Of a stretch of DNA of 64,000 nucleotides, positions 1-59,798 are shown piece after piece (positions within the stretch are counted from its first letter, which is position 1; each line of letters begins with the position of its first letter). Source of the DNA: Bacteroidales bacterium (GTDB lineage: Bacteria; Bacteroidota; Bacteroidia; Bacteroidales; GCA-2748055). A program made the translations under genes and the position numbers. The DNA lies in the NCBI GenBank assembly GCA_023138875.1, contig JAGLOO010000043.1:1-64000 (forward strand). The letters run 5' to 3'. The notes under the pieces were generated by a model. That model did not search any database, had not been told where the DNA came from, and saw only the letters and a list, made by a program, of their open reading frames with translations.

Positions 1-1356
1 TTCCACAAATTGGGATTGCACCCCATAAAGATTGAAGAAAGCGCTTCATTATCTGATTATGATATCGCAGTCTTTTCTCCCAATCTGGATTATACAGATT
101 ATTATCACGACAACGATGGTTATGAAGGTAAATCACTCTATAACAAGTCGTCCTCTGCAAGAATATTGGAAGATACCAAACATTGGAATAAGGAGATTTC
201 TAATTTCCTTAAAAGTGGTAAAACACTATTTGTAAACCTTAAGCATAAGGAAGACTTTTATGTGTATTCTGGTCAAAAGACTTTTAGTGGAACAGGGAAA
301 AGTAGGCAACCTACATATCATGTTCAATCACATTCTAATTATGATTTTTTACCCTATGATGGTAATGTACATAATGCAAAAGGAAGAATATTAAATGTTG
401 CTAATAACCTGATTTCAAGCTTTTATAATGACTTTAAAGACTATATCAATTACGAAGCGTATGTTGATAGTCAAGAAGTGACAATTCTTTTCACAACAAG
501 GAATAAGGATAGAGTTTTAGGTTGCTATAAAAAAGTATCGACTGGGTATCTAATCTTTATACCATATCTAGATTTTAATGTCAAATCTTTAATTGATGAA
601 GATAAAGAGACTGGTGAAGAGAATTGGAATAGTAAGGCTATCCAGATCGGTAAAAGGTTTGCAAAGAGTCTGGTTGATTTTGATACAGCAATTAGAAAGG
701 ATATAGACAAAACTCCAAAACCCAAGTGGGCCGACAGTGGCGTTTTTAACTTAAAAGATGCAGAAAAAACAAAAAAGGAAATTGAAGCAAATACATCCAA
801 AATTCGATCGCTTGAAACTAAGAACAGGGAGCTAAACGAAGTATTGGTCGAACAGGAAAGCTTAAAAGATTTGCTATTCGAATCTGGTAAACCGCTTGAA
901 CAAGCTGTGATTAAGGCTTTAAAGATTCTTGGTTATCAAGCTGAGAGTTATGATGATGGTACACTTGAGCTTGATCAAGTAATCCTAAGCCCAGAGAAGA
1001 TTAGATTTATTGGTGAATGTGAAGGGAGAGATAATAAAGACATTGATATCGGAAAGTTTAGGCAATTGCTAGATTCACTAAACGAAGATTTTGAAAGAGA
1101 GGAAATAGATGAAAAAGCACTCGGCCTATTATTTGGGAATCCCATGAGATTAGTTGAACCACAAAAGAGGGGAATTGGGTTTACTACAAAATGTATTAAG
1201 GGAGCTCAGCGTGAGAAAATTGGATTGGTTAAGACATTCGATTTATATAAAGTTTGCAAAAAAATACTTGAAGAAGAAGACGATGTTTATAAAGCTAGCT
1301 GTAGAAACTCAATATTCGAACAATTAGGCAATGTAATAGAATTTCCGGATAGCTGA
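1..1356 (+). CDS. Partial protein: coiled coil plus restriction-endonuclease-like C-terminal domain
   Basis: The frame is open from the first base, and the first possible start (TTG at 10) is not convincing, so the gene is probably cut by the window edge. About 450 residues are visible. Residues 1-240 resemble nothing I recognise. Residues 255-290 are rich in Lys/Glu and look like a short coiled coil. The C-terminal part has a pattern seen in PD-(D/E)XK-type nuclease domains: a helix (FESGKPLEQAVIKALKILGY), an acidic strand (LELDQV), then FIGECEGRDNK and a following helix. I infer a restriction-endonuclease-like fold that may act in defence or DNA repair, but the catalytic Lys is uncertain. 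Base composition is AT-rich like the rest of 1-5400 and unlike the housekeeping genes further right. Next to it are non-coding DNA and an IS630 element. Alternative: a regulatory protein with an inactive nuclease fold. Confidence 0.5.
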   Translation, partial: FHKLGLHPIKIEESASLSDYDIAVFSPNLDYTDYYHDNDGYEGKSLYNKSSSARILEDTKHWNKEISNFLKSGKTLFVNLKHKEDFYVYSGQKTFSGTGKSRQPTYHVQSHSNYDFLPYDGNVHNAKGRILNVANNLISSFYNDFKDYINYEAYVDSQEVTILFTTRNKDRVLGCYKKVSTGYLIFIPYLDFNVKSLIDEDKETGEENWNSKAIQIGKRFAKSLVDFDTAIRKDIDKTPKPKWADSGVFNLKDAEKTKKEIEANTSKIRSLETKNRELNEVLVEQESLKDLLFESGKPLEQAVIKALKILGYQAESYDDGTLELDQVILSPEKIRFIGECEGRDNKDIDIGKFRQLLDSLNEDFEREEIDEKALGLLFGNPMRLVEPQKRGIGFTTKCIKGAQREKIGLVKTFDLYKVCKKILEEEDDVYKASCRNSIFEQLGNVIEFPDS

Positions 1357-49073: not shown

Positions 49074-50003
49074 ATGTCTGAAACCAAACATATACGCAAA
49101 CCCAGAAACCATCAACATCATCCGGTGAATGAAAAAAACCTGATTGCCGTCACCCTGCTCAATCTGGTAATTACCATTGTAGAAATTGCCGGAGGCATCC
49201 TCTCCGGCAGCCTTGCCCTTCTCTCCGATGCCATTCATAACCTGAGTGATGCTTTTTCCACCTTCATCGCTTACCTGGCCACCATCATTGGCCGTCGGGA
49301 GGCCAATCAAAAAAAGACCTTCGGATACAAACGGATGGAGATCCTGGCTGCCGTGTTGAACGCGGTCATCCTGATTGTTATGAGCGTCTTCCTGCTGATT
49401 GAAGCCTACGAACGCTTGAATGAACCCCGGACCATCAATTCAATGGTCATGCTTATAGTGGCAATGATCGGATTGCTGGCCAACCTGTATGCTTTGGTCA
49501 TACTTAAAAAGGAAGCTCATAAAAACATCAACGTCAGGGCAGCCTATGTACACCTGATTGGAGACAGCCTCTCCTCCGTGGTGGTAATAATCGGTGGTGT
49601 TTTGATTCAGATCTATAAGATCTATTGGGTCGATCCGCTGATTACCCTGCTCATTTCCATTTACATTATCCGGGAAGCATTTGTTATTCTAAAGGAAGCA
49701 GTAAATATCCTGATGCAATCGGCGCCTGAAAACCTCGATCTGTCGAAAGTAAAGAAGCTGGTTGAACAAATACCTGATGTATACAACATACATCACCTTC
49801 ATGCCTGGATGCTGACCGACCGGGAGATCCACCTGGAAGCCCATGTGGAATTGAAAAACGATCTGAAATTAAGCGAAGTGAAAACCACACAGTCGGAGAT
49901 AGAAAAAGTGTTGCAACGTGATTTTCACATCGGTCATATCACACTTCAGTTCGAATACAAAACCGGCCACACCCCACATCTCATTCATAAAGATAAGAGG
50001 TAA
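49074..50003 (+). CDS. Cation diffusion facilitator (CzcD/ZitB-like)
   Basis: 309 residues, six transmembrane segments, His-rich N-terminus (RKPRNHQHHPVNEK). Metal site: HNLSDAFSTF in TM2 and HLIGDSLSSV in TM5, both of H-x3-D type, which indicates a zinc-type exporter; cytoplasmic C-terminal ferredoxin-like domain (HHLHAWMLTDREIHLEAHVEL). It begins one base after the zupT stop, so its translation is coupled with the uptake protein. Zn (or Cd/Co) export is inferred from the family. Confidence 0.92.
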   Translation: MSETKHIRKPRNHQHHPVNEKNLIAVTLLNLVITIVEIAGGILSGSLALLSDAIHNLSDAFSTFIAYLATIIGRREANQKKTFGYKRMEILAAVLNAVILIVMSVFLLIEAYERLNEPRTINSMVMLIVAMIGLLANLYALVILKKEAHKNINVRAAYVHLIGDSLSSVVVIIGGVLIQIYKIYWVDPLITLLISIYIIREAFVILKEAVNILMQSAPENLDLSKVKKLVEQIPDVYNIHHLHAWMLTDREIHLEAHVELKNDLKLSEVKTTQSEIEKVLQRDFHIGHITLQFEYKTGHTPHLIHKDKR

Positions 50004-50933
50004 ATGAACAGAGAGAAAAAGATCATTCGTGCGTCGTGGTGGGCCATCATCGGCAATGCATTGCTTGCTTTATTGAAGCTTGTCATCGGATTTGTTTCAG
50101 GAAGTTTCGCGGTTATTGCAGATGGCATTGATTCCGCCACCGATGTTGCATCCTCAATTGTCGTATTGCTAGCGGCCAGGATTATCGCCAAACCGCCCAA
50201 TGTAAAATTTTCTTACGGATACAAAAAAGCCGATACAGTCGCCACCAGGGTGCTCTCTTTAGTTATCTTTTTTGCAGGTGCCCAGCTGGCCTATTCAACA
50301 ATTAAAATTCTGGTTGAAGGTTCCGTGATGAAAACACCTTCTCCCCTGGCGATCTATGTAACCATCATATCCATTATTGGGAAACTGGTCCTGACGCTGA
50401 TCCTCTACCAGACAGGCAAGAAAGTTGAGAGCCAGATGGTTATTGCCAATGCAAAGAACATGCGCAATGACATCCTGATCTCTCTGAGCGTACTGGGGAG
50501 CCTGCTCTTTACCACGCTTCTTCAGGAACCCCTCATAGATAGGATTATTGCGCTGGTAATCAGCGTCTTTATTATGATTGTAGCATATCGGATATTTATG
50601 AAATCCAACATCGATCTAATGGATGGGATTGATGATACCGGGTTGTACACCCAGCTCTTTGAGGCAGTAAAGATCGTTGAAGGAGCGCATCATCCACACA
50701 GGGTTCGAGCGCGTAAAATCGGACACCATTATATGATTAACCTGGATATTGAGGTCAGGCCCGATCTTTCAGTAAAGCAAGCCCATGACATTGCAAAGAA
50801 TGTGGAAAACAGCATAAAATCGAACCTTCCCAATATCTACGATGTTATGGTTCATATAGAACCCCTGGGAAACAAAGAAGAAGATGAGAAATACGGCATC
50901 ACTGAATCTGAAATTAGAAATCATAAAGCGTAG
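50004..50933 (+). CDS. Second cation diffusion facilitator (FieF-like, Fe/Mn type)
   Basis: 309 residues, six transmembrane segments. TM2 has ADGIDSATDVASSI (D-x3-D type) and TM5 NMRNDILISLSV (N-x3-D type). This is different from the H-x3-D site of the neighbour and points to Fe/Mn-type substrates, but the assignment is by analogy. C-terminal cytoplasmic domain GAHHPHRVRARKIGHHYMINLDIEV. It begins directly at the end of the first CDF gene (0-bp gap). It is not a duplicate of it, since the sequences differ over most of the length. Confidence 0.9.
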   Translation: MNREKKIIRASWWAIIGNALLALLKLVIGFVSGSFAVIADGIDSATDVASSIVVLLAARIIAKPPNVKFSYGYKKADTVATRVLSLVIFFAGAQLAYSTIKILVEGSVMKTPSPLAIYVTIISIIGKLVLTLILYQTGKKVESQMVIANAKNMRNDILISLSVLGSLLFTTLLQEPLIDRIIALVISVFIMIVAYRIFMKSNIDLMDGIDDTGLYTQLFEAVKIVEGAHHPHRVRARKIGHHYMINLDIEVRPDLSVKQAHDIAKNVENSIKSNLPNIYDVMVHIEPLGNKEEDEKYGITESEIRNHKA

Positions 50934-53214: not shown

Positions 53215-54510
53215 ATGAATATCGGTATTATTATAGGGCGAATCGGTGGTGCCGACGGAGTAGCCCTGGAAACTGAAAAATGGATCGATGTTCTAAGATC
53301 CATGGGCCATTCGATCTATATTCTTTCCGGTCAGTTCCAGGAAAGGCAGATGGACATGAAAACAGAAACCCTGGTTTGTGAAATGTCGTTTTTCTCCCCG
53401 GAGAGTTTCTGGAGTCAGAAAAAAGCTTTTTTTTATCCGGAGACCGATCCTCAGGAATTGATTGAGCACCTTAATCTCTATTCAAAAGTTATTTACAAAA
53501 AGATACTGAACTGGATCGGTGAAAAAAAGATCGATCTGATTATTTCTGAAAATGCCTCTGCCCTGCCCTCTCACCTCGAAATGGGACTGGCAGTCAATAA
53601 AGCTGTACATAAATGCGGTTTACCCACCATTACCCATGACCACGATTTTGCATGGGAACGTGGCGATCGGTATGTTTCTCCGCACAAGGATATCAACGAA
53701 TTTGTATCAGCTGTATTTCCCTTAAGGGCTCCCAACTCGATTCATGCAGTGATCAACACCCACGCCAAGAACACATTACTTGAGCGTTTTCAGCGCGAAT
53801 CGGTCAATGTGCCCAATGTGATGGACTTCAGCAAATCATTCGGTGTTCAAAACCAGAAAAATGAAAAATTGGCCGAACACATTGGTTTCAAAAACGACGA
53901 CCTGTTTCTTTACCAGGTCACGCGCATTGTTAGAAGAAAAGGGATTGAGACTGCCATCAAATTGCTTCATGAACTGAATGATAAGAAGATAAAACTGATC
54001 ATCACCGGAAATTATGCAGATGACTCCGGCAGCGCCTATTACAACGAACTAGTGAACCAGATCCATGAATTGAGGCTCGGAGAACAGGTAGGTTTTGCAT
54101 ACCATCTTTTCCACAATAAGGGACTGTCCAATTCAAATGGTGAGGAGCGATTTTCCCTTTCCGATGCGTACGCCCGTGCCACAGCCTGTACTTACTTCAG
54201 TATCTATGAAGGATTTGGAAATGCTTTTGTGGAAGCCGTGCTGGCAAAGCGTCCCGTTTTTGTGAACAATTACGAACCGGTCTATATGCCCGATATCGGC
54301 ACAAGGGGATTCAAGACGGTCATGATCGAAAACAGCGACCTCACTGAAGAATCTGTGAAGGACATGTCTGAAGTCATCTATAATCCCGGTCTTGCAGAGG
54401 AGATAGCCCTGTACAATTTTGAACTGGGAAAGAAGTACTTCAGTTACGACACGCTCCGGGAAAAACTTGAAGAAGTAATCCGGCTGGCCAAAACAGCCGC
54501 CGGAGCTTAA
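53215..54510 (+). CDS. GT4-family glycosyltransferase (possible mannosylglucosylglycerate-synthase type)
   Basis: 431 residues, two-Rossmann (GT-B) form. The N-terminus MNIGIIIGRIGGADGVALET begins the acceptor half; ITHDHDFAWERGDRY (about 142-156) is a conserved family feature; the donor half has TRIVRRKGIETAI and the EX7E motif in YEGFGNAFVEAV. The general sequence type resembles the GT4 members that make mannosylglucosyl-type compatible solutes, but I am not sure of the sugar or acceptor. It shares the HDF-x-WE segment and the EX7E part with the N-terminal half of the large fusion protein at 55641-59798. It overlaps the hemW gene end by four bases (convergent). Confidence 0.72.
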   Translation: MNIGIIIGRIGGADGVALETEKWIDVLRSMGHSIYILSGQFQERQMDMKTETLVCEMSFFSPESFWSQKKAFFYPETDPQELIEHLNLYSKVIYKKILNWIGEKKIDLIISENASALPSHLEMGLAVNKAVHKCGLPTITHDHDFAWERGDRYVSPHKDINEFVSAVFPLRAPNSIHAVINTHAKNTLLERFQRESVNVPNVMDFSKSFGVQNQKNEKLAEHIGFKNDDLFLYQVTRIVRRKGIETAIKLLHELNDKKIKLIITGNYADDSGSAYYNELVNQIHELRLGEQVGFAYHLFHNKGLSNSNGEERFSLSDAYARATACTYFSIYEGFGNAFVEAVLAKRPVFVNNYEPVYMPDIGTRGFKTVMIENSDLTEESVKDMSEVIYNPGLAEEIALYNFELGKKYFSYDTLREKLEEVIRLAKTAAGA

Positions 54511-55634
54511 TCTGTAAACAGTTCCCTCAGAATGAGGTCAGTAATCAGCCACTGTGCAGGTTGAATAGCCACTTTTCCTTCCCTGATCCACATGGACCCA
54601 TCTTCAAGGAATGGTTCGGTCTTCCCGTCAAAGTGGTTCCGTATCGCTTCTCCAAAATGACGTCCTATATGGTCAGGATCGGCTCCCCACCGGGTGCGAA
54701 GAGAGGTGATCAGATAGTCGTGGTACATCTCCTCGATGGATAGGTTTTCATATTCCCGGATCTCCCTGTTTTGGGCAATCCCCTCCATATACCCCTTCAG
54801 GAAAGAGATGTTCCAGTGTCTGGACGAACCATCGAAGGAGTGGGCAGACGGACCAAATCCCAGGTAGGGTAGACCGGACCAGTAGATCAAGTTGTGTTCC
54901 GACATTCTCCCATGCAGGGCGAAATTTGAGATTTCGTAGTGATCAAACCCTTTAGAAATTAACTGTTCCCTGAGCAGATGGTAGAGCCGGATGCTCTGCT
55001 CTTCATGTACCGTAACCAGCCGCTCTTTTTTCCGCCAGTGATCAAATACCGTTCCTGGCTCAAATGTGAGATGATACGCAGAGAGATGTGCAATGGGAAG
55101 TGAAATGGCCTTCAATACATTTTCCTCCCATTCCTGGGTGGACTGACCCGGGATCCCATAAATAAGGTCCAATGTAATGTTTTCAAATCCTGCCGATGCA
55201 GCATCCTTTACACACCGGCCGGCCTGGTCGGCATCGTGTGAGCGGCGCATCAACTGAAGGTCCTTTTCATGAAAAGACTGTATGCCTACACTGAGCCGGT
55301 TGAAACCCTTTTGTTTTAAAAACTCCAGGAAGGCAGGGTCCATGTCATCCGGATTGCATTCAATGGTCATTTCAGCATCGCTGCGAAACGAAAAACAGCG
55401 GTGTACAGCTTCCATGATCCTCTCCAGGTTTTCACGAGACAGTATTGAAGGTGTCCCTCCTCCTATATAGAGGGTGTCAATGGTATTTCCGGAATGTTCT
55501 TCACTCCTTAATCTGATCTCTTCAACCAGCCTGTCAACAAATTCATCCTTATAGCATAAACTCACCGAAAAAAAGAAATCACAATACCTGCAGGCCTGCC
55601 TGCAAAACGGGATATGAATGTAGATTCCCCGCAT
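54507..55634 (-). CDS. hemW: Radical SAM heme chaperone HemW
   Basis: 375 residues. The radical-SAM cluster motif is CRQACRYCDF near residue 10-19, after YIHIPF. Further signatures are YIGGGTPSIL, RLSVGIQSF and the HemN-like C-terminal domain (GLPYLGFGPSAHSF). The extra Cys after CxxxCxxC is replaced by Phe, as in HemW and unlike HemN, which makes heme transfer more likely than coproporphyrinogen oxidation. It lies 6 bp after the large glycosyltransferase fusion and is probably co-transcribed. Confidence 0.92.
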   Translation of the reverse strand: MRGIYIHIPFCRQACRYCDFFFSVSLCYKDEFVDRLVEEIRLRSEEHSGNTIDTLYIGGGTPSILSRENLERIMEAVHRCFSFRSDAEMTIECNPDDMDPAFLEFLKQKGFNRLSVGIQSFHEKDLQLMRRSHDADQAGRCVKDAASAGFENITLDLIYGIPGQSTQEWEENVLKAISLPIAHLSAYHLTFEPGTVFDHWRKKERLVTVHEEQSIRLYHLLREQLISKGFDHYEISNFALHGRMSEHNLIYWSGLPYLGFGPSAHSFDGSSRHWNISFLKGYMEGIAQNREIREYENLSIEEMYHDYLITSLRTRWGADPDHIGRHFGEAIRNHFDGKTEPFLEDGSMWIREGKVAIQPAQWLITDLILRELFTD

Positions 55635-55640
55635 TTGTGA

Positions 55641-58600
55641 TTATTCGCTGATGAACCCTATAATGGCGTTGGAAACAGCCCTTGGTTCAGGGGGCAGGGC
55701 ATACACATTGGATTCATAATTCTTATTATAGGGTGAAATATTCAGGATTTGATCCGCTACCACCAGGGTGCTGCTTCCCCCGGGATCAAATCCCATGGCC
55801 CGTTCCATACCATGCTTTTTCAGAATCGCTGCCATGTCAAAATGAGTGGCTCCCACAGATTCCCGTATCCTTCCATTAATGGTGAGTACTGCCAGCTGAC
55901 CTTCGCTGTTGATCCCCACAGCAATCTTTGGTCCGCGCATGTTGGTGTAATCAAGCCGGGCAGCCTGTGTACGAATGGAGTGGTTGGTTTTCCAGCCTTC
56001 TGTCTCCATATCAATGGCCACTTTGCCCTGATCCAGGAGTAAAGGTCCGGCTTCCACCGCGTGCAAAACATTCCCGTATCCATGTACGGAAATCGCTAAT
56101 TTATCTCCCTTTTTCAATTCAGGTAGCATGGCATCCCTGCTGAAAGCAAAGGTCAGGCCCACCGGTACAATGGGAATCCTTTCTTCCTTCCCGGTTTCAA
56201 TAATTTCCTTCACCTCATTTCCCGCCAATCTCACAATAATCCTGCCATTGCCATCAATGTCATCGCCCCGATACAACAGGTCAAAATAGGATACCTCCTC
56301 GTTTATATCATCCCGGTTATAAGCATTCCCGCTCAGTTCTATTTCCCTGTTCTTCCATGAAATAAACAAACCTCTTGCACAATTTACCCTGCGGATATCA
56401 ATGGACCCATCCTTATCGATGATCAGGGCCGGTTTATTAAACAGAGGTGGAGAAATCATGCTTCCGGCCGAAATAAGCATCCCCAGCGGGGAACCAATAT
56501 ATGTTTCAGGAAGCCCAAGTTTGCCCACCAGTTCGGGATTAAGGATATAACCGCCGTTCCAGGCAATCTGTGCCGTCTTACCCGATTGCCTGTTGAATGT
56601 CTTTACAAACTGAAGCACGGTTTTTGGTTTTCCAGGGGTGGTGACTGCTGCAAAATCCCACTGTTGCGCCCTGAAATTGATCTGTGCGATGGCCCCGTTA
56701 TAAGGCATTCCATCATCATAGGTCCCGCTTACATATTCATAGGTAATCTCCTTTTTCTCCTTATCAGGCTGTTCAAGGGATTGAAGCACATGCATCACCG
56801 GACTTCCCCGGTGAATCGCATCTTCCCTGATGGCGGTCATGATCTCTTTTTCTCCAAGTTTCTGTTTGAGTGTTTTGAACAAATCGCTCTTTAAAGCGCG
56901 TTCAAAGTCTTTCGCTGTCTGGACCGGCGTTGGATAGGACAGGGTGGCTCTTACTCCTGCAGGTACAAACTGTATATACCCGCTGTCGACCGGAATACCC
57001 ATGATACTGGAATGAAACTGACTGGTTACTTTTCCAATGTGAAAGCGGTCCATATTTACCATGTCGGTCATCATGGCCGCATTGCTTCTGTTGGTGAGCA
57101 GATATCCGTTTTGCTGCTGTATGCTGCGCAATACTTTTAGTGCCCTGCTGCCCAGCTGTGGAAAATGAATGCCCACGCATACTTGTTTGGTCCTGATAAT
57201 CTGGATCACCTTAAACTCATAAAGCAGTTTCAACTCTTCCGACTTACCGTTGACGATATAATCCGTGATTTCATCTTTATTCAACTGCTTTCCAAGGTTC
57301 CTTTCCTGGGCAAAAATGTATACAGCCTGTAATTGCTTTGCTTTCCTGATTAACAGCTTCCTGGAGATTGCTTCTTCAATAGGCAACCCGAGCCTGGAGC
57401 GGATCGACTGCAGTGCAAAGAATTCCAGTTCATACATAATGTAAGCACCCGGAAAATAGGCGATTGGCAGATTGGTTTGCAATACTTCAATCAGTTTTTT
57501 CCTGTCATCGATGGCCAGGTAAGAGCTTCCGGTGAGCTGCAACAGGGCCAGGTTCCAATCTGTAAAAAATTGAGGACTGAGATCTACTTTGTTCAGGGGA
57601 GTTGGCTGCACAATCCTGATATAAAGAAGGTTGATCAATCCCGTAAGCTCCTGAAAAGTATAATCCTGGTATGGATAGTGTGCCATGTGCCTGTGCCTGT
57701 AGGACATCGAATGATCATGCTGGATTTCAGTTTCTCCTTTACGGGTAATAAAAAGCGTTTCGATTGCATTATAAAAACTATTGACCTTTTCCCGGGGTAT
57801 ATAGTCTGCATCGGGATCATTACTGATAATTGCCCTGGCAAAATGAAAAGCCATTCCGCGTATGTGTTGTTGTTCCACCCTGAAATAACTCGGATCAATC
57901 AGGGATTTTAGCATGAGCATGAAAGAGAGTCGGCCATATCCGGGCAGGTAATGCCTGTTCCGGGTATCCAACAGAAAACGCAGGTCCTCATTGGTAAAAT
58001 TGACCATCTCCCTGTAATCGTCGATACATTCCCGGACAATCCTTAAAACTTTTTCATTGCTGTTTAACTGTGTATAAAGACGGTGCAATATCTTATGAAT
58101 ATTTTCATTGAGAGAATCCAGGCTGTATCGCTCATGAACCACCTTCTTGTTGTGCCTGAATTCATCGGTATACCTGTGTGGGAAAAAAACCCTGTCGATG
58201 ATCTTTTTAACGATGGTATTGCTTATTTTCTTCCCCCTGAATTCCAGCACCTTTAACCGGTCCTTTTCGCCCAGGTGTTCACCAATAACTTCGGAGTAAA
58301 CCTCTTCGGGTTCATACCTTCTGCAAAAAATGGGCGTGCCGCAGGCGGTAGCTTCTATGATGGGCAAACCCCTCCCCTCCATTTTGCTGGGAAGAAGGAC
58401 CAGTGATGAAATATTGTAAAGCTCTGATATCCCTGCAGGGTTGTCGAAACGCTCCTTGAATGATTCCCTGTCAAGTTCCCCGAAAAGCAGTGCCAGGTAT
58501 ATCCGGTTTTTCAAAGTCGATCCAACCTGGTCCAAAAATTCCTGAAACCGCTCTATCAGTTTCCGGTAATAACCATAATGCCCGACAGCAATAGGCCCGG

Positions 58601-59798
58601 TAATAAGAAGGGTCATTTTCAGGTGTGAGGTTCTTCTGAACCGGAGGACCATCTCTTCATGTTCAAACATTTTAATCAAAAGGCTAAAGGAGGTCTCGAT
58701 CCGCTTCCTTGAAATGATCCGGGTGGGTTGCAAAAATATGATGTTCTCTCCGATAAACCGATCCACCGAACCTGTCCGCGCACCTATGAGAATAGGCCTT
58801 GGATTGTTCTCAGCCACCAGGCCTCCTGAAAGCACATCTTCCACAGAAAAACTTACCATTTGATCGGTGTATCTTGATAATATTTTTTCAACCTGGATAA
58901 AAGTATTGATGTTCTTCCTTTTGTCATTCTTCGTATACTGAGATGTATCTACAGCAGTGCCGATCTCCATCACATTGGACGGATTATGACCGTTGGTCCT
59001 GATCATATGGTCGGACTGACCCCTGTTGATATTCACATTGATCCAGCTCCTTGATTGCCAGGGGAACAATACCTCAATAATGGAAAACACCTCTCCCAGA
59101 TGATAATTGGTAAAGAATAAATCCCTCGGGCCCGATTTTGATGTTGACTTCTCCCGGTCTGACTTACACATGCCTCCTTCCCAGTAAAAATCATGGTTGT
59201 TGTTGATTACCGGAATACCCAGAAATTCAGAAAGGAGAACCGTAGCAAGTGCCAGGGAAACATTCCCCGGGTTTGAACAAACATTGATCACATAGAGCAG
59301 GTTGATCCTTTCATTCTCAATATAGCGACCCAATTTTTCAATGATAACCAGTGTCTGTGCCCATAGCTTTTTGATCAATGAATTATAGGCCCCGTTACCC
59401 CGCTCCAGGTTTGTGAAATAGAAATCCTTGTATAATTCCCAATCATTAAACCCTGTCAGTTCCGGTATGATGCATTTCTTATATTCTTCCTGGATGATCG
59501 GAGCTGTTTTGACGTGAATCTCCCCGGATATATAATGAACCGGAATTCCTGGAATATTGCGCCTGATCAGCGAGGCGTATTTATTCACCTCAATGGTAAC
59601 CCCGTCCACCATATAGTGAAAAGTGAGAAATCCAATCCCCCCTTTTCTCAATTGTTCCTTAAAATCATCATATGATCCGTTAACCATGATGGATGGGTAA
59701 TTCTGGTTTTCTTTAAACCGGTCAATGAAAAGGCCCAGATCAAACCAGGTTTCAATTTTTTCCCCACCAAGGAAAGCAAGTAAATCATCCAGTTTCAT
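55641..59798 (-). CDS. Giant fusion: glycosyltransferase + unknown middle domain + phosphodiester glycosidase (NAGPA-type)
   Basis: 1385 residues, one unbroken frame. Residues 1-575 form a GT-B glycosyltransferase: acceptor half with NNNHDFYWEGG (199-209), donor half with LQPTRIISRKRIE and the EX7E motif in KMEGRGLPIIEATACGTP (E474, E482). Residues about 580-1015 are mainly helical (RHYLPGYGRLSFMLMLK; FPGAYIMYELEFFALQSI) and resemble nothing I recognise. Residues 1018-1385 fit the phosphodiester-glycosidase family (human NAGPA and bacterial relatives, DUF2233): AWNGGYI near 1080, RGPKIAVGIN near 1290, and FDPGGSSTLVV near 1340. No signal peptide or membrane segment is seen, so it seems cytosolic, which is odd for a hydrolase of this family. 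One partner could make a sugar-phosphate linkage and the other remove or edit it. Divergent from VanZ; followed by hemW. Confidence 0.8.
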   Translation of the reverse strand: MKLDDLLAFLGGEKIETWFDLGLFIDRFKENQNYPSIMVNGSYDDFKEQLRKGGIGFLTFHYMVDGVTIEVNKYASLIRRNIPGIPVHYISGEIHVKTAPIIQEEYKKCIIPELTGFNDWELYKDFYFTNLERGNGAYNSLIKKLWAQTLVIIEKLGRYIENERINLLYVINVCSNPGNVSLALATVLLSEFLGIPVINNNHDFYWEGGMCKSDREKSTSKSGPRDLFFTNYHLGEVFSIIEVLFPWQSRSWINVNINRGQSDHMIRTNGHNPSNVMEIGTAVDTSQYTKNDKRKNINTFIQVEKILSRYTDQMVSFSVEDVLSGGLVAENNPRPILIGARTGSVDRFIGENIIFLQPTRIISRKRIETSFSLLIKMFEHEEMVLRFRRTSHLKMTLLITGPIAVGHYGYYRKLIERFQEFLDQVGSTLKNRIYLALLFGELDRESFKERFDNPAGISELYNISSLVLLPSKMEGRGLPIIEATACGTPIFCRRYEPEEVYSEVIGEHLGEKDRLKVLEFRGKKISNTIVKKIIDRVFFPHRYTDEFRHNKKVVHERYSLDSLNENIHKILHRLYTQLNSNEKVLRIVRECIDDYREMVNFTNEDLRFLLDTRNRHYLPGYGRLSFMLMLKSLIDPSYFRVEQQHIRGMAFHFARAIISNDPDADYIPREKVNSFYNAIETLFITRKGETEIQHDHSMSYRHRHMAHYPYQDYTFQELTGLINLLYIRIVQPTPLNKVDLSPQFFTDWNLALLQLTGSSYLAIDDRKKLIEVLQTNLPIAYFPGAYIMYELEFFALQSIRSRLGLPIEEAISRKLLIRKAKQLQAVYIFAQERNLGKQLNKDEITDYIVNGKSEELKLLYEFKVIQIIRTKQVCVGIHFPQLGSRALKVLRSIQQQNGYLLTNRSNAAMMTDMVNMDRFHIGKVTSQFHSSIMGIPVDSGYIQFVPAGVRATLSYPTPVQTAKDFERALKSDLFKTLKQKLGEKEIMTAIREDAIHRGSPVMHVLQSLEQPDKEKKEITYEYVSGTYDDGMPYNGAIAQINFRAQQWDFAAVTTPGKPKTVLQFVKTFNRQSGKTAQIAWNGGYILNPELVGKLGLPETYIGSPLGMLISAGSMISPPLFNKPALIIDKDGSIDIRRVNCARGLFISWKNREIELSGNAYNRDDINEEVSYFDLLYRGDDIDGNGRIIVRLAGNEVKEIIETGKEERIPIVPVGLTFAFSRDAMLPELKKGDKLAISVHGYGNVLHAVEAGPLLLDQGKVAIDMETEGWKTNHSIRTQAARLDYTNMRGPKIAVGINSEGQLAVLTINGRIRESVGATHFDMAAILKKHGMERAMGFDPGGSSTLVVADQILNISPYNKNYESNVYALPPEPRAVSNAIIGFISE

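Follow-up and report, generated by a model that had tools for sequence, protein, structure and literature searches.

What could a single polypeptide do with a sugar-transferring enzyme at one end and an enzyme that removes sugars from phosphodiesters at the other? The question is raised by a gene in a 64,000-nucleotide stretch of DNA from a Bacteroidales bacterium (assembly GCA_023138875.1, contig JAGLOO010000043.1, positions 1 to 64,000; hereafter the window), whose product joins a GT4-type glycosyltransferase, a DUF89-like domain and a NAGPA domain. This fusion is a conserved enzyme architecture assembled from known enzyme kinds, and its family is widespread yet patchy. The strongest clue to its role is a co-occurring gene for a second glycosyltransferase, which we call the companion. 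We tentatively propose, as a possibility that falls somewhat short of an even chance, that fusion and companion form one cytosolic two-protein pathway to a small alpha-linked glycoside, with NAGPA trimming and a DUF89-type scaffold. The features concerned are listed here in window coordinates.

55641-59798, minus strand: whole fusion protein (GT4-type glycosyltransferase, DUF89-like domain, NAGPA domain), 1385 residues; relatives are built alike
58044-59798, minus strand: glycosyltransferase of predicted GT-B fold, GT4 type, residues 1-585 (AlphaFold model, Foldseek, VIA, NF041101)
58353-58379, minus strand: EX7E motif EGRGLPIIE, E474-E482 (sequence; both Glu invariant in 47 aligned sequences)
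56769-58031, minus strand: middle domain, residues 590-1010; predicted fold of DUF89/ARMT1 type spanning about 601-947, followed by helices towards the NAGPA part
57690-57719, minus strand: HDHS..YRHR motif, residues 694-703, not seen in the aligned DUF89 proteins
57444-57452, minus strand: P783-G784-A785, opposite the catalytic Asp-Asn of DUF89 phosphatases (G784 in 50 of 50 sequences)
55644-56756, minus strand: NAGPA domain (phosphodiester glycosidase, DUF2233), residues 1015-1385 (PF09992; PDB relatives)
56550-56558, minus strand: NGG motif, residues 1081-1083 (sequence; invariant in 47 aligned sequences)
55770-55787, minus strand: DPGGSS motif, residues 1338-1343 (sequence; invariant in 47 aligned sequences)
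53215-54510, plus strand: companion GT4-type glycosyltransferase, 431 residues (NF041101; co-occurrence with the fusion)

The fusion is encoded by a single unbroken open reading frame (ORF) with an ATG start; a random frame of 1385 codons would stay open with a chance of about 2e-35 at the guanine-cytosine content of the window (0.443). On the whole chain, Pfam matched NAGPA (PF09992; E 2.8e-17, residues 1242-1380, 63.9 bits against a cut-off of 25) and Glycos_transf_1 (E 7.4e-8, residues 453-496, 32.6 bits against a gathering cut-off of 26.4). Neither hydropathy nor inspection by eye gave a signal peptide, in agreement with an earlier note made from the bare sequence, and no membrane segment was found, as no stretch of 19 residues exceeded 2.1 on the Kyte-Doolittle scale; the hydropathy maximum (from residue 180) falls within the GT-B domain. 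Judging by its sequence, the fusion would be cytosolic.

The earlier note had allowed for an isolated artefact, with the parts occurring only as separate genes in relatives, and had suggested a survey of the domain combination in genomes. Such an artefact is ruled out by a survey of the genus and family, a sample of the order and a scan of a genome collection, since the parts are regularly found fused in the genomes examined. In the genus and family survey (61 genomes, counting the window's own), copies close to full length with 54-79 percent identity were found in the genus, in a further genus from its family and in a single additional family within the order; five further genomes have cut or split copies. 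Searching 295 genomes sampled from the order with the middle domain (E <= 0.001) gave 18 matches, of which 17 were kept, the last (G197) being an amidase-like ORF; the 17 genomes belong to 12 families and their fusions have open frames of 1387-1441 residues. A scan of 84,980 species yielded 170 relatives, and the fused build was present in all 80 loci that were examined, seven of them cut by a contig start. Among these 80, 65 showed all four marks of a motif check and eight were full-length with one motif variant (four of them rechecked). A stand-alone middle domain was seen in none of the 80 loci and 17 order genomes, and the counts from loci and genome surveys are not independent, as the two sets overlap. 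In a phylum-wide sample, the middle-domain profile matched only one of 395 genomes, the window's own, so the cassette is patchy.

Regarding taxonomy, the 80 relatives come from Bacteroidales, one Marinilabiliales metagenome-assembled genome, Marinifilum and isolates of Flavobacteriaceae (Winogradskyella, Lutibacter, Lutimonas, Flavivirga, Aureibaculum and Hyunsoonleella), the named isolates being presumably marine. The 80 also include metagenome-assembled genomes labelled Cyclobacteriaceae (one) and Chlorobiota (two); the Chlorobiota label of one of them (L075) is doubtful because its contig places coincide with those of a genome that belongs to the window's order. For the alignments, 74 near-full-length relatives were reduced to 49 by removing near-copies at 88 percent identity; alignments A4, A5 and A6 hold 46, 47 and 46 of these together with the window's protein, and A5 additionally L048 and L049.

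We next consider the companion, which the earlier note had passed over. In the order sample, the set of genomes containing it (E <= 1e-40, 53-100 percent identity) coincides with the 17 of 295 that have the fusion, and two weaker matches (27 and 33 percent) sit in genomes without it. The companion lies inside 56 of the 80 loci, either directly upstream on the same strand (31 loci, 28 of them separated by at most 29 nt) or convergent downstream (25 loci). Of the loci without it, 17 reach a contig edge and seven do not. Seven genomes whose locus is without a companion were searched, and all seven have it elsewhere, although three of these repeat genomes already counted (G115, G182 and G303 coincide in their contig places with G714, G715 and G713, to which L076, L067 and L075 belong) and only four, all Marinifilum, are new. 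In the genomes checked, the companion is present wherever it was looked for, as an obligate partner would be. A mirror-tree comparison of both proteins gave r 0.969 over 52 pairs, reached by none of 1000 permutations, as common descent would also predict.

Besides co-occurring, both proteins are alike. The companion is homologous to the glycosyltransferase domain of the fusion (hhalign probability 99.5 percent, E 5.5e-23), its EX7E acids E332 and E340 are invariant in 34 aligned sequences, and all 34 match NF041101, the model of mannosylglucosylglycerate synthase, to which the companion is by sequence a distant relative. Both are of GT4 type with EX7E acids, the transferases are homologous and the genes co-occur; we tentatively place the two in one pathway.

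Structure prediction, one of the checks that the earlier note had proposed, returned a GT-B fold for the transferase and a DUF89/ARMT1 fold for the middle domain. The AlphaFold2 model of residues 1-590 (47 sequences) had a pLDDT (predicted local distance difference test) of 87.1 and a pTM (predicted template modelling score) of 0.82. With it, Foldseek found GT-B transferases (E 1.4e-13), and VIA placed 7mi0 at the top (Z 21.5, root-mean-square deviation (rmsd) 3.4, 368 aligned, model residues 45-579), followed by HepE (20.5), PimB' (19.7), GlgM (19.1) and BshA (18.9), with MshA, WaaG and TarM also among the GT-B matches. We take BshA, MshA and GlgM to be small-acceptor enzymes, and WaaG, PimB' and TarM to be lipopolysaccharide, lipid and teichoic acid transferases. 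The predicted fold, together with E474-GRGLPII-E482, bears out the GT-B transferase with intact EX7E motif that had been read from the sequence. By family, the domain would be a retaining transferase, and 47 of 47 fusion sequences match NF041101 over this part (E <= 0.001).

The C-terminal domain was also recognized correctly as NAGPA-type with its NGG and DPGGSS motifs. Residues 1015-1385 alone match PF09992 with an E value of 5.8e-19, as do all 47 aligned sequences at E <= 0.001, and its relatives by PDB sequence search are Slr0280 (5h3k, 2.3e-10) and NAGPA chains including 6pku (best 3e-6). Where the NAGPA chains have the Arg of their S-A-R-T stretch, the fusion has an aligned Lys (G-P-K-I). 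A phage search with this part found nothing. Separate NAGPA-type genes exist in some of the 61 surveyed genomes. One of them, in G057 (L023:1396-2586), encodes a 397-residue stand-alone relative with 27 percent identity over residues 1022-1380; it has DAANGSS in place of DPGGSS and is flanked by amidase-like and glycosidase-like ORFs (by eye).

The middle domain had been described as large, unassigned and helical. It is large, but the AlphaFold model (16 sequences; pLDDT 82.6, pTM 0.85) combines a helical N-terminal half with an alpha/beta core and is not purely helical. Foldseek matched 1xfi (E 9.6e-7). In VIA, the top match (Z 20.0, rmsd 3.7, 289 aligned, model range 12..358) was followed by others at Z 18.5 and 17.0, whereas the first unrelated protein had a Z of 6.5; we treated everything below the DUF89-type entries (Z <= 6.5) as background. 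The thirteen leading VIA matches are eight proteins with DUF89 titles, 1xfi and four fission yeast proteins that we assume to be DUF89 members. 1xfi is itself a DUF89 member (PMC9352595). The predicted structure indicates that the middle domain has a DUF89 fold, and a new fold is ruled out by this match. Sequence searches were less telling: none of 16 middle-domain sequences matched PF01937 at E values up to 1, one PDB search found nothing and another a single unrelated protein (E 0.43), and a plasmid search was empty.

A comparison with bona fide DUF89 proteins suggests that the fold has lost its known chemistry. The DUF89 profile (A7) was built from 12 of 21 fetched loci, leaving out fragments and longer or interrupted ones, and in all 12 sequences the D-N, N-D and K-G-Q-G-N motifs are invariant. 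In its local modes, hhalign aligned both families co-linearly over query positions 6-354 and 1-354 with P values of 0.23 and 0.36, which are not significant, and in global mode it gave just 59 columns at the wrong end. We read the residues from an alignment in which model strands were matched to the DUF89 motifs by eye; judged in this way, the strands sit where the motifs require. At the place of the catalytic Asp, all 50 sequences have Gly. At that of the catalytic Asn we found Lys (16), Arg (12), Glu (9), Ala (4) and others, with Asp in two, and Asn is not among the seven commonest residues. The second catalytic Asp is replaced by Trp (28), Gln (11) or Asn (6) in 45 of 50, and the Lys by Asn in 40 of 50. 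Two aspartates are reported to be essential for DUF89 phosphatase activity (PMC9352595). An active DUF89 phosphatase is accordingly not supported, given that the catalytic residues are replaced in this eye-anchored alignment, which is not significant alone. Instead, the motifs K-S-x-I-D-P-S-x-F-R-x-E and H-D-H-x-x-x-Y-R-x-R are conserved in at least 49 of 50 sequences, and so is each of H694, D695, H696, Y700, R701 and R703; residues 693-703 have a pLDDT below 50, which makes the position of HDHS..YRHR within the fold uncertain.

The middle domain is probably not a DUF89 phosphatase by the known mechanism, and it may bind a ligand or catalyze a new reaction. The earlier note had named, as grounds for refutation, a known family in this place that gives a different function: the fold is indeed a known one, but no known function transfers since the alignment shows none of the catalytic residues of DUF89. 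As a side observation, the window's own genome also encodes a bona fide DUF89/ARMT1 protein with the family motifs (G000:C15:80291-81103, L135).

In the pathway that we tentatively put forward, the two transferases would act successively, with a sugar acid or a sugar phosphate as their small acceptor, and build a short alpha-linked glycoside by successive alpha-glycosyl transfers. The NAGPA domain would hydrolyze a glycosyl-1-phosphodiester made or bound by the fusion, as maturation or proof-reading, while the middle domain, its metal-phosphatase reaction probably lost, could sit between the catalytic ends as a regulator or a scaffold that binds sugar phosphates. The product would most likely be a low-molecular-weight glycoside of the compatible-solute kind. 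The build-and-trim scheme of the earlier note, with a compatible solute or phosphoglycan as product, is conjecture. The kinship of the companion to mannosylglucosylglycerate synthase mildly favors a small glycoside over a surface polymer. Mannosylglucosylglycerate is a solute of Rhodopirellula and Petrotoga (PMC3694870) and would by analogy be a model for the product class rather than the product.

Several results weigh against this proposal. To our knowledge, known NAGPA enzymes work outside the cytosol, exported or lumenal, though the family is not defined by this. The mixed acceptors among the structural matches of the GT-B model do not settle the acceptor of the fusion. Both proteins stay below the NF041101 cut-off of 640 bits, the companion with 213 bits over its full length and the fusion with 41 bits, its transferase part matching with 45 bits over profile positions 223-430. 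The middle-domain assignment is affected too, as the six best Foldseek superpositions are modest (template modelling scores of 0.31-0.42 by query length) and a further hhalign comparison with DUF89 proteins was not significant (E 0.011, probability 3.9 percent, 72 columns). The fusion was not found in four of 17 other genomes of the genus (completeness 69-88 percent), and no common theme was found among ten neighbors from five other loci submitted to Pfam. Finally, the best match to glucosyl-3-phosphoglycerate synthase (GpgS, NF010496) in the window's genome reached 47.8 bits against a cut-off of 262, which the model passes in one of 14 control genomes. With no GpgS above the cut-off, a glycerate-type product, and mannosylglucosylglycerate itself, are disfavored; other sources of glucosylglycerate besides GpgS exist.

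One could also argue for other explanations. The transferases and the NAGPA domain might build and trim a phosphodiester-containing polymer at the membrane's inner face, as enzymes of a surface phosphoglycan or exopolysaccharide. Companion sequences do match exopolysaccharide transferases at E <= 1e-10 (VpsD in 10 of 34, HpsP in one of 34), lipopolysaccharide and wall transferases are among the structural matches of the GT-B domain, and PMC12419801 describes large proteins of Bacillota in which NAGPA is joined to a TelC-type domain and to extracellular binding domains. However, all 34 companion sequences match a small-glycoside synthase model, the fusion has no membrane segment by hydropathy, and no polysaccharide flippase or polymerase was present among the ten Pfam-tested neighbors, most neighbors lying outside that test. 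We regard this explanation as unlikely.

An alternative with three steps is that the middle domain has remained a phosphatase or other hydrolase with a rebuilt active site (DHS..YRHR, IDPS.FR.E) that dephosphorylates the product of the transferase. Fused synthase/phosphatase enzymes are known for glycosyl-glycerates. The DUF89 fold itself, the polar residues beyond the DUF89 motifs that 49 or more of the 50 sequences retain, and an alignment that is not significant alone, so that the catalytic loss could be mis-registration, are consistent with such an enzyme. Yet the aspartates reported as essential in PMC9352595 align with Gly in 50 of 50 sequences and with Trp, Gln or Asn in 45 of 50, and we consider a three-step enzyme doubtful. 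The fusion could also serve mere co-regulation, with the NAGPA domain acting in salvage or a futile cycle on nucleotide sugars or sugar-1-phosphate diesters unrelated to the transferase product; in the cytosol, nucleotide sugars would be the most abundant glycosyl-phosphodiester-like substrates. The three parts, however, keep their order and length throughout the 17 order genomes, which span 12 families, and across the 80 loci, contig cuts aside. This suggests coupling, and we rate the salvage role as quite improbable. A bolder version of the two-protein pathway, to which we give little credence, is a new, mainly marine pathway to a new class of compatible solutes. In it, a DUF89-fold domain without phosphatase site, re-tooled around DHS..YRHR, would link a transferase with a phosphodiester glycosidase of the same chain, acting in the cytosol, either through sugar-phosphate binding or through a new reaction, and the second transferase would be an obligate partner.

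The surroundings of the fusion were analyzed as well. A HemW gene lies between companion and fusion in the window (54507-55634) and in many Bacteroidales loci, and its cluster is present in 38 of 81 loci (window included); it is probably unrelated housekeeping context. In Flavobacteriaceae, the remaining neighbors differ genus by genus, which leaves the companion and the fusion as the unit. The ten Pfam-tested neighbors comprise three ABC-transport parts, a DUF4340 protein, a Dus enzyme, a pyridoxal-dependent decarboxylase, a P-loop kinase-like protein, UvrD, a sugar transporter and one protein without family; as they share no theme, the operon context was dismissed as evidence on the product. 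Elsewhere in the window (49074-50933), two adjacent ORFs of 309 residues, cation-efflux-like by eye, fall into one similarity cluster (cluster 20). Four loci in which the companion lies away from the fusion were looked at, with these stretches noted.

L187:8666-10040: unlinked companion locus
L188:7834-9229: unlinked companion locus
L189:6295-7724: unlinked companion locus
L190:4273-5712: unlinked companion locus

In all four, the companion is divergent from a conserved pair of genes beside it, for a lipoprotein-like protein of about 304 residues and a secreted-looking one of about 146 residues (by eye), neither of which had a Pfam match.

The pairing points to an undescribed sugar-building pathway in some, mostly marine, Bacteroidota. 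Relatives of the fusion are found in cultured Winogradskyella, Lutibacter, Flavivirga and Marinifilum, and a two-gene cassette in cultured strains makes the product open to deletion and metabolite comparison. The middle domain would then be an instance in which glycan chemistry has taken over the fold of a metabolite phosphatase, and the NAGPA domain would, unusually, be working in the cytosol. Among the matches listed in open-licence literature, we found no description of the domain combination, of the apparently de-catalyzed DUF89-type middle domain or of the transferase pairing.

Each part can be set against a known system. Compared with mannosylglucosylglycerate synthase (NF041101), the companion is alike over its full length and all 47 fusion transferase sequences match, but both window proteins score far below 640 bits, the fusion adds N-terminal helices and two domains, and the window's genome has no GpgS above its cut-off. 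With the DUF89/ARMT1 phosphatases (1xfi, 2g8l and 2ffj), the middle domain shares its predicted fold for the greater part of its length (Z 17.0-20.0, rmsd 2.9-3.7, 229-289 residues), whereas it has no PF01937 match, its Asp-Asn, second Asp and Lys are replaced in the alignment, and it has invariant motifs of its own. The C-terminal domain scores above the cut-off of the NAGPA family (PF09992/DUF2233; human uncovering enzyme, Slr0280), with NGG and D-x-GGS in common; unlike these enzymes, it is joined to a transferase and has no apparent signal peptide. The MgsD-type bifunctional synthase/phosphatases of glycosyl-glycerate solutes likewise unite a transferase with a phosphoester-related domain in a single chain. 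From these, we take the fusion to differ in its phosphatase-type fold, its extra NAGPA domain and its partnership with a second transferase.

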